NCBI GenBank assembly: GCA_903862955.1
Contig: CAIPAH010000007.1
Coordinates: forward strand, 1-64,000
Source of the DNA: an uncultured Opitutia bacterium
Lineage (GTDB): Bacteria > Verrucomicrobiota > Verrucomicrobiia > Opitutales > Opitutaceae
DNA length: 64,000 bases
Direction of reading: 5' to 3'
Made by a program: the position numbers and the translations under genes. Shown here piece after piece: positions 13,722-15,050 of this stretch. The number at the start of each line of letters is the position of its first letter. Positions within the stretch are counted from its first letter, which is position 1. The notes beneath the pieces were generated by a model. The model was not told the origin of the DNA and searched no databases. It worked only from the letters and a program-made list of their open reading frames with translations.

Positions 13722-14765
13722 TTATTTCACGGCCGTCGTGCGGCGCAGCGTCCAGAGTTGCTTCGCCTGCGTGATGATCAAGGCGAGCACGTCGGGCGTC
13801 ACCGCCTGCTTCGGGTCATCGCCAATGCCGTGGCTGGGGCTGACGTGGGATTCGATGCAGAGGCCGTCGGCGCCGTAAGCGACGGCCGCGAGGGCGCAGG
13901 CGGGAACGTAAGTCGCCTTGCCCACCGAGTGGGACGGATCTACCACGACCGGCGCCCAGGTCTTTTCCTTGAGCAGCGGGGTGATGCTCTCGTCCGGATG
14001 ATTACGATAGCCGTCGAGCGTGGGTGTCGTGCCCCGCGGGCAAAGGATGACGTTGGGATTGCCGAACGCCGCGATGTATTCCGCCGCGGAGATGAACTCG
14101 GCCAGCGGGCCCATGTGAATGCTGCGCTTGAGCAGCACGCAGGTGTCGCGCTCGGCGATCGCGCGCCCGATGGCTCGGAGTAGCGAGTAATTGAGGGCAT
14201 TGCGCGCGCCGACTTGCAGCGAGTGCACGCCGGCGTCGAGCGCGAGCTTGATGTGGCTGTCCTCCATCACCTCCGTGTCGACGGGCAGCCCGGTGCGGCG
14301 CGAGGCCTCCATCAGGATGTCCAGCGACTTCACGTCGCCCTGGAACGCATACGGATTGGTGCGGGGTTTCCAGACGCCGCCGCGCAGCACGTGCGCACCT
14401 GCTTCCTTCGCGGCGGCCGCCGTTTCGTAGAAATAGTTGGGGTTCTTGGGATCGATCGTGCAGGTGCCCGCAATCACGAGCAGCTCCTCGCCCAGCGTCA
14501 CACCTCCGAGCTTGATGCGGTGGCTGGCGAGGTCGGACCGCTTGTCCATCAGCTTGAACGGCGACTGGATCCGGTCGATGCGGTCCACGTAGTCGAGACC
14601 CTCCAGCCGGTTGATCATCAGCTCGTCGCGCTCGTCGCCCACGATGGCGTAGATCGTCCGCACCGCGCCGACGATGGGTTGGATCTTGCAGCCAAACTCC
14701 CCGACGATCGCGGTAATCTCGGCAATTTGCTCGGAGCTCAGGCGGTTGGACTTGGGCAGGATCAT
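13722..14765 (-). CDS. aroF: 3-deoxy-7-phosphoheptulonate (DAHP) synthase, type I-beta-like
   Basis: A 347-residue protein that condenses phosphoenolpyruvate and erythrose 4-phosphate in the first step of the shikimate pathway. An N-terminal ferredoxin-like domain (about 1-70), seen in Thermotoga-type enzymes as the feedback site, precedes the barrel. Signature elements are LRGGVWKPRTNPYAFQG (127-143), a Cys102 metal ligand in AGTCTIDP (99-106), and DPSHSVGKATYVP. The AGTCT segment differs from the usual AGPCS. Expression appears to be controlled by the leader peptide and attenuator just upstream. Confidence 0.92.
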   Translation of the reverse strand: MILPKSNRLSSEQIAEITAIVGEFGCKIQPIVGAVRTIYAIVGDERDELMINRLEGLDYVDRIDRIQSPFKLMDKRSDLASHRIKLGGVTLGEELLVIAGTCTIDPKNPNYFYETAAAAKEAGAHVLRGGVWKPRTNPYAFQGDVKSLDILMEASRRTGLPVDTEVMEDSHIKLALDAGVHSLQVGARNALNYSLLRAIGRAIAERDTCVLLKRSIHMGPLAEFISAAEYIAAFGNPNVILCPRGTTPTLDGYRNHPDESITPLLKEKTWAPVVVDPSHSVGKATYVPACALAAVAYGADGLCIESHVSPSHGIGDDPKQAVTPDVLALIITQAKQLWTLRRTTAVK

Positions 14766-14784: not shown

Positions 14785-14814
14785 TAATAAAAAAGCCGCC
14801 CGATTGGGCGGCTT
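14785..14814 (-). terminator. Attenuator terminator hairpin upstream of DAHP synthase
   Basis: On the minus strand a perfect 9-base-pair stem (arms at 14806-14814 and 14793-14801) closes a 4-base loop and is followed by TTTTTT. It lies between the leader peptide stop and the DAHP synthase start, where a plain end-of-gene terminator would make no sense. Confidence 0.88.
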
Positions 14815-14846
14815 GGTGGCGAAAGTGGTTGGACTCAGGTTTCGCG

Positions 14847-14921
14847 TCAGCCGCCCATGATTTTCCGGGTAAAATAGCCCCAGAAACCAAAGCTGTAAAA
14901 ATAAGCGGGGAAGCGATTCAC
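14847..14921 (-). CDS. Aromatic-rich leader peptide of DAHP synthase
   Basis: A 24-residue frame with GTG start and TGA stop. Its core AYFYSFGFWGYF is strikingly aromatic: five Phe, three Tyr and one Trp among 24 residues. The tail TRKIMGG runs across the regulatory GGGCGGCT segment. No clear Shine-Dalgarno sequence precedes the GTG; a TTG 36 bases upstream is in frame but falls in the likely -35 element. Its role would be to sense charged tRNA-Phe/Tyr/Trp, not to act as a protein. Confidence 0.82.
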   Translation of the reverse strand: MNRFPAYFYSFGFWGYFTRKIMGG

Positions 14922-14951: not shown

Positions 14952-14957
14952 TGTCAA
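14952..14957 (-). promoter_or_regulatory. Possible -35 element for the DAHP synthase leader transcript
   Basis: A perfect TTGACA on the minus strand, 30 bases before the leader GTG. No good -10 hexamer is seen at the right spacing, so this is tentative. If used, the transcript would start close to the leader codon. Confidence 0.35.
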
Positions 14958-14985: not shown

Positions 14986-15050
14986 ACTGTAGGAGCGGCT
15001 TCATGCCGCGACGGTCCCCGCCAGTCGCGGGGTAAACCCGCTCCTACAGT
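14986..15050. repeat. Palindromic REP-like element (GTAGGAGCGG family)
   Basis: Perfect 13-base inverted arms (14986-14998 ACTGTAGGAGCGG and 15038-15050) enclose 39 bases that contain an inner GC-rich partial palindrome. The element lies between the pseudouridine synthase end and the DAHP synthase leader. TGTAGGAGCGG-type repeats are known in many GC-rich bacteria. A related half-arm appears near 56558. Confidence 0.75.

Follow-up and report, generated by a model that had tools for sequence, protein, structure and literature searches.

Among the closest described relatives of the element reported here are the pheL-pheA and trpL-trpEDCBA attenuators of Escherichia coli, in which a leader containing the regulated codons is followed by a segment complementary to the 5' arm of a terminator, and this terminator precedes the biosynthetic gene. 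Attenuation of genes for DAHP synthase (3-deoxy-7-phosphoheptulonate synthase) is itself already known outside the Verrucomicrobiota, from the aroR leader of Corynebacterium glutamicum and, as a prediction, from uORFC-13-1 of Acholeplasma. The primary paper on aroR is reportedly that of Neshat in 2014. The aroR leader of the C. glutamicum DAHP synthase gene aroF contains the run Phe-Tyr-Phe, and transcription increases under Phe limitation (PMC11802643, PMC4046766). Acholeplasma uORFC-13-1 is a predicted frame upstream of aroF with Phe codons before a terminator (PMC8632094). In Streptomyces lividans, trpL1, leuL, and ilvL are leader frames without a 5' untranslated region, and leaderless transcripts there have a -35 element of the form TTGACn (PMC8079986). 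Attenuators have also been predicted before the aroA-tyrA operon of Vibrio (PMC1173090), aroF is entered in an attenuator table for Shewanella (PMC2659441), two shikimate-linked uORFs with Phe and Tyr have been described (PMC6429828), and C. glutamicum ilvBNC has been given a three-hairpin model that includes an anti-antiterminator (PMC11857589). According to a 2010 survey, leader-peptide systems had been shown in Proteobacteria and Actinobacteria only before the Firmicutes case that it presented (PMC2965389), and the excerpts of PMC1262725, PMC10219788, and PMC11109978 contain no case from Verrucomicrobiota. Among the matches listed in the open full-text literature, we recognised no leader-peptide attenuator from this phylum, in agreement with the initial annotation of the locus, which knew of no example in the group.

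The locus lies in a window of 64,000 nucleotides (the whole stretch of DNA analysed) from an uncultured Opitutia bacterium of the family Opitutaceae. An attenuator-like layout occupies positions 14921-14789 on the minus strand and consists of the following features, given with the DAHP synthase gene that they precede and in the direction of transcription:

14952-14957, minus strand: probable -35 element TTGACA (conservation upstream of leaders)
14847-14921, minus strand: leader ORF, MNRFPAYFYSFGFWGYFTRKIMGG, 24 codons from GTG at 14921 to TGA (ORF reading; recurs in relatives)
14879-14886, minus strand: 5' arm of hairpin P, TTTCTGGG, inside the leader ORF (folding, synonymous shuffles)
14862-14869, minus strand: 3' arm of hairpin P, CCCGGAAA, with the last Tyr-Phe codons in the loop (folding, synonymous shuffles)
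14849-14856, minus strand: arm A, GGGCGGCT, the 5' arm of the antiterminator, which overlaps the stop codon of the leader (sequence, folding, arm comparison)
14840-14845, minus strand: 5' arm of the inner antiterminator stem, GCGAAA (folding)
14819-14824, minus strand: 3' arm of the inner antiterminator stem, TTTCGC (folding)
14806-14814, minus strand: arm B, AAGCCGCCC, shared by the terminator (as its 5' arm) and the antiterminator (as its 3' arm) (terminator scan, folding)
14789-14801, minus strand: arm C, GGGCGGCTT, the 3' arm of the terminator (14801-14793), with the T tract at 14794-14789 (terminator scan, sequence)
13722-14765, minus strand: aroF, DAHP synthase, the controlled gene (family and homology searches)

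As in ribosome-mediated attenuators generally, there is a short ORF enriched in codons for the amino acids of the pathway, an intrinsic terminator between leader and structural gene and, as far as folding and comparison go, an antiterminator that shares one terminator arm and whose free arm would be covered by a ribosome at the stop codon. The initial annotation had each of its elements in the right place, including a correctly counted 24-codon GTG frame with five Phe, three Tyr, and one Trp, and did not give the strand. It overlooked the upstream TTGACA, hairpin P within the leader frame, and the inner stem of the antiterminator. The terminator hairpin has nine pairs, seven of them G-C, in the terminator scan, and the first two T of its six-T tract also belong to the stem; 23 bases separate the tract from aroF. 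The scan alone proves little, as it returned three terminator-like sites in the 2 kb concerned against 1.8 in shuffles.

The aroF product belongs to the DAHP synthase families (best NCBIfam model NF006421, E 4.2e-81, 272.8 bits, below the model cut-off of 335), and a genome-wide search found it to be the only clear copy, the sole other match being 31% identical (E 1.7e-6). The next gene upstream, which we take to be rluA-like and thus pseudouridine-synthase-like, is on the same strand and ends 141 nt before the leader start. We also note a long inverted repeat, TGTAGGAGCGG... ...CCGCTCCTACA, on the minus strand at 14988-15048 of the window, between this gene and the aroF promoter, which resembles a REP-type intergenic repeat. 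Within the genome the element was found once: covariance model R1 gave one strong match, at aroF (113.8 bits), followed by one at 17.0, and the 1.5 kb before the trpE-, pabB/trpE-like, and pheA-like matches contained neither terminator nor aromatic frame. Searched with Rfam at gathering thresholds, the whole window yielded a single tRNA and no T-box leader; Phe_leader (RF01859) scored 25.5 bits against a gathering score of 55, and no family was found up to E 10.

A search of 150 family genomes at E 1e-30 found aroF in 131. Upstream regions were fetched for these and for the best 80 of 188 named Opitutaceae/Opitutae/Verrucomicrobia loci, and removal of those identical in the last 200 nt left 158 family regions of at least 250 nt. 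We accepted frames no longer than 45 residues in which some stretch of 14 contained 5 or more aromatic residues and which ended 10-60 nt before a terminator; leader starts were chosen by aromatic density, the longest frame per stop having missed or mis-started many leaders. Forty of the 158 regions satisfied this rule, or 39 after one (L111) was removed by eye, compared with a mean of 0.05 (maximum 1) in 20 dinucleotide shuffles and 0/158 in the reverse complements. Judged against these controls, the pairing of frame and terminator before aroF is far beyond chance, and with 119 of 158 regions failing the rule it is common rather than universal. One further locus, L141, is not counted in the 39 as its T tract is interrupted, though leader, arms, and stem are present. 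From an earlier list of 37 out of 127 regions, three carboxyl ends of the upstream gene (L056, L091, L097) and the far-upstream L111 were discarded as false, leaving 33 leaders. In the window's own genus the leader is visible in five of seven genomes; of the other two, L027 has a contig that ends too near but keeps the terminator, and L024 lacks both. Six genomes of family genera g5 and g44 (G004, G044, G075, G098, G118, G135), listed as 95-100% complete, have no such DAHP synthase at E 1e-30 and may use another class of the enzyme.

Outside the family the distribution is discontinuous. For INTERMEDIATE and distant relatives, 11 of 12 extra-family loci with aroF 63-75% identical were fetched (L208-L218; eight from sister families of the order and three from another family of the class), and under the same rule the element was absent from all 11. 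In a more distant sample of the class, comprising 54 of 112 listed matches with DAHP synthases about 34-41% identical (L254-L307), 19 loci satisfied the rule and the shuffles gave 0. The terminators of these 19 are of the CCGCAGG type in 14, the CGCCGCCGGC type in four, and another type in one, and the GCCGCCC/GGGCGGC of the family does not occur among them. Among the matches listed for other classes of the phylum, 3 of 40 loci passed; these (L324, L326, L340) have very aromatic leaders (e.g. MNNNRYFYFGFFYFAFTERGVG) and terminators of still other sequence before their DAHP synthase genes. Across 384 class genomes, R1 matched at 45 bits or more only in the window's own family, a result that sets no bound on the range of the element since R1 is insensitive and misses even family members that carry it, among them G020 and G045; its other matches, at about 18-24 bits, look chance-like and were set aside. 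The three loci from another family of the class (L208-L210, in G266, G256, and G389) have aroF genes 71-75% identical to that of the window in a family otherwise at 39-40%, possibly through gene transfer or misplacement, and have no leader before aroF.

The leaders retain aromatic codons more faithfully than any one sequence. Phe and Tyr are each present in all 39 family leaders and Trp in 19, with a mean aromatic fraction of 30%; among the 19 class leaders, Phe occurs in 19, Tyr in 18, and Trp in 17, with a fraction of 28%. Many family leaders share the core YFxFxF-W/R/A-GYFTxxxxGG, and some leaders of both the family and the class have a core like GYF(T/S)R or GYYFSR in common. In the other four leaders visible in the same genus (L003, L004, L005, L010), Arg, encoded by CGG, stands at the Trp position and hairpin P is kept. 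Since Phe and Tyr are found in every family leader and Trp in about half, the signals sensed in the family are likely to be Phe and Tyr, with Trp optional. The earlier suggestion that starvation for Phe, Tyr, or Trp is sensed is thus borne out by conservation for the first two amino acids and not for the third.

The copy at the stop codon had been proposed to pair with the terminator 5' arm and so exclude the terminator, and the comparison of arms agrees: A and C can each pair with B. For 58 leaders (39 family, 19 class) we computed the duplex between the 5' arm of the terminator and the 40 nt that follow the last aromatic codon of the cluster. The native A:B duplexes had a mean of -14.49 kcal/mol, re-paired ones a mean of -12.76 (sd 0.25) and a best value of -13.73, and none of 20000 permutations was as good as the native arrangement, a count that ignores kinship among the loci. 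By class, CCGCAGG-type A arms gave -12.8 with B arms of their own class and -9.7 with GCCGCC B arms, and CGCCGGC-type A arms gave -13.1 with their own against -8.1. Two results run contrary to this. GCCGCC A arms pair very well with B arms of the CGCCGGC type (-16.2), which contain GCCGCC, and 9 of the 58 loci have a native A:B duplex less stable than the average for their A arm with B arms of other classes. Both conservation checks proposed with the initial annotation come out in its favour in the lineages that have the element: the family core and the copy GGCGGCT recur in family leaders, and in distant relatives the leader-end copy mostly fits the changed terminator. Within the family, helix A:B hardly varies, and covariation can therefore say nothing about it there. 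A second, inner stem lies within the antiterminator in most of the 33 folded family leaders, L154 being without it. A MAFFT/RNAalifold consensus of 33 leaders recovered the terminator alone because the arm registers shift, and was replaced by arm-swap tests and the folding of single sequences.

Most leaders form a hairpin where their aromatic stretch ends, and its loop often holds the last Tyr-Phe codons. The arms of this hairpin P are TTCCGGG/CCCGGAA in the genus, TTTGCGGG/CCCCGCAAA, CTTCGGC/GCCGAAG, and TTCGCCGGC/GCCGGGCGAA in the rest of the family, and GGCTATTATTTTAGCC-like in part of the class. Synonymous-codon shuffles were drawn with the codon usage of six genes from the window. Hairpin P is stabler than the shuffle mean in 32 of 33 family leaders (mean z -1.29), in 37 of 39 in the larger set (mean z -1.44), and in 16 of 19 class leaders, where one outlier, L286, exaggerates the mean z of -1.71. 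Individually, only 6 of the 33 reach p <0.05, and related leaders are not independent. Covariation in hairpin P, counted in alignment A3 of 24 leaders, is modest, with two-sided changes in four of seven pairs and similar scores for slid versions. The 3' arm does not overlap arm A, and the hairpin may pause the polymerase until the ribosome comes.

The spacing between codons and arms is nearly fixed in the family. The last aromatic codon lies exactly 15 nt from arm A in 28 of 33 family leaders (the exceptions are L072, L141, L153, L157, and L167, the last a pattern miss), and with A defined by the duplex the gap is 14-16 nt in 35 of 39. Relative to the point where A begins, the stop codon lies between 3 nt upstream and 25 nt downstream in 39/39. 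A ribosome stalled on the last aromatic codon would just spare A. Class leaders lack the fixed spacing, their gap varying from 1 to 14 nt; the stop codon lies 8-24 nt after the first base of A in 18 of 19.

Upstream of the leaders, TTGAC is present in 57 of 58 loci about 36 nt before the start. In the family, TTGACA occurs in 38 of 39, and 36 of these 38 copies lie 35-38 nt ahead of the leader; in the class, TTGAC occurs in 19/19, at 35-38 nt in 15 of them; TTGACA is found somewhere in the last 300 nt in 21 of the 119 family regions without the element. At a 17-nt spacer the -10 position in the window is CACTCC (14934-14929), which ends 7 nt before the GTG, so that the predicted first base of the transcript falls on the start codon or beside it. 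The -10 region reads TAnnnT, 16 nt after TTGACN, in several class leaders and is a weakly conserved CAC in the family. Shine-Dalgarno-like 4-mers precede the leader start in only 1 of 58 loci (windows further up gave 4, 10, and 5). From the position of TTGAC and the near-absence of Shine-Dalgarno motifs, the leader probably has a promoter of its own, and the leader frame is probably leaderless, with a transcript that starts at the start codon. A promoter-like site from the initial scan lies inside the leader frame and was passed over for the conserved upstream TTGACA. In L007, a family member without a leader, a TTGACA located 44 nt ahead of aroF overlaps the stop codon at which the upstream gene ends and is perhaps the promoter of aroF itself.

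We then folded the leaders with ribosome masks, using a footprint of our own choice that reaches 20 nt upstream and 12 nt downstream of the A-site codon; the stop codon lies 18-25 nt after the start of A in most family leaders, and a shorter footprint would leave A partly covered. With transcripts that run from the start codon and end before C, predicted A:B pairing in the family (n=39) was 0.65 with no ribosome, 0.68 with a stalled ribosome, and 0.03 with a ribosome at the stop (0.88, 0.88, and 0.00 in the window species; 0.61, 0.63, and 0.04 in the family when 15 nt of upstream sequence were included). The calculation that gave these last family values returned 0.00, 0.55, and 0.00 for E. 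coli trpL and 0.00, 0.75-0.87, and 0.00 for pheL; for both E. coli leaders, all sequence from a set position at the stop codon or close to it counted as the A side. The family leaders and the E. coli leaders are thus alike under the stalled and the terminating masks and differ in the ribosome-free transcript, which has no antiterminator in E. coli (0.00) and forms one in the 39 family leaders (0.61-0.65). A segment 1:2 that would hold A in the absence of translation, the anti-antiterminator of the trp and phe type, was not found in the family by thermodynamic folding. The switch of the family is therefore predicted by these folds to be ON by default without translation, unlike those of trpL and pheL. 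Class leaders (n=19) gave 0.29 without a ribosome and 0.43 stalled, so default ON is claimed for the family alone; A:B exceeded 0.5 before C without a ribosome in 32 of 39 family and 4 of 19 class leaders, and with a stalled ribosome in 9 of 19 class leaders.

When C is included, the terminator dominates at equilibrium in most loci, with family mean B:C of 0.87, 0.89, and 0.95 for no ribosome, stalled, and stop, respectively. Even with a stalled ribosome B:C is 0.94 in the window species, and it is likewise 0.95 in trpL. A switch of this kind consequently needs co-transcriptional kinetics, and whole-leader equilibrium folding is a weak test, as it fails for trpL too.

These observations, namely conservation, arm matching, spacing, and masked folding, support the initial reading of ribosome-mediated attenuation, and the element is very probably a ribosome-mediated transcription attenuator of the DAHP synthase gene. 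In the mechanism we propose, RNA polymerase would begin at or next to the leader start codon with a ribosome trailing it. When charged tRNA-Phe and tRNA-Tyr are ample, the ribosome would reach the stop codon and cover A, B would pair with C, and transcription would stop before aroF. When either tRNA is scarce, the ribosome would stall on the aromatic codons, the last of which is about 15 nt before A in the family, A:B would form once B emerges, the terminator would be blocked, and aroF would be transcribed. A family transcript without a ribosome should read through too, since no upstream segment is predicted to hold A.

One alternative, in which the terminator simply closes the pseudouridine-synthase-like gene upstream and the aromatic frame arose by chance, draws on the position of that gene, 141 nt before the leader start on the same strand, and on a single-site terminator scan barely above expectation. 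We consider it very improbable: frame and terminator co-occur far more often than in shuffles, the spacing from codon to arm is nearly fixed in the family, leader-end arms mostly fit the differing terminators of distant clades, and TTGAC stands about 36 nt before the leader start in 57/58. About as improbable is control of the terminator by an RNA-binding protein or a ligand-binding RNA, with the frame secondary. The several conserved hairpins would suit such control, but no Rfam family reaches its gathering threshold in the region, the leaders of other families differ in almost all of their sequence, and what is conserved is codons, arms, and spacing, not a compact aptamer core.

Marginally less remote, and still very unlikely, is an arrest of the ribosome by the peptide itself in response to a free aromatic amino acid, the signal then not being tRNA charging; TnaC offers a parallel. 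The repeated core GYF(T/S)R or GYYFSR, which exceeds what a codon counter strictly needs, speaks for such an arrest. Against this, the peptide varies widely at a steady aromatic density of about 28-30%, the core codons form hairpin P, so that their conservation is explicable at the RNA level, and a TnaC-like design turns its gene on at amino acid excess, which is the wrong direction for biosynthesis.

Set beside the described systems, the element differs from E. coli trpL and pheL in that it controls a DAHP synthase, in the presence of both Phe and Tyr in all 39 family leaders, and in a Shine-Dalgarno sequence that is nearly always missing. C. glutamicum aroR belongs to another phylum and has a three-residue aromatic run as opposed to 7-8 aromatic residues per leader here, a distinction that goes by its published description as excerpted. 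Also compared by description, uORFC-13-1 has a ribosome-binding site and at least one Phe, and in the excerpt is confined to Acholeplasma and environmental sequences (PMC8632094). The leaderless leaders of S. lividans include, in the excerpt available, no aromatic DAHP synthase case, and their lack of a 5' untranslated region is matched here by a start that we infer (PMC8079986). What the present locus and its relatives would add, as judged from sequence comparison and folding models, is the phylum, the breadth of conservation, the in-frame hairpin, a probable leaderless start, and a predicted default ON state.

More tentatively, and with somewhat less than even confidence, we suggest that these features may amount to a distinct Verrucomicrobiota attenuator layout. 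It would combine a leaderless aromatic ORF with a conserved in-frame hairpin that sets the timing and whose loop carries the final sensing codons, and in the family it would do without an anti-antiterminator; the switch would be ON by default and turned OFF only by a ribosome that finishes the leader. A single sensor of Phe and Tyr, and often Trp, would serve the shared first step of the pathway, and the layout would be old in the class, its three arms rewritten together in separate lineages, and lost many times.

If this account is correct, then, to judge from the matches listed in the open full-text literature, no leader-peptide attenuators had previously been reported in Verrucomicrobiota, and the present ones would provide a simple handle on how the shikimate pathway is gated in these bacteria. 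The 58 naturally occurring variants, which represent three or more terminator families, would be a good test bed for the co-evolution of competing RNA arms, and likewise for asking whether default-ON attenuation can operate without an anti-antiterminator.
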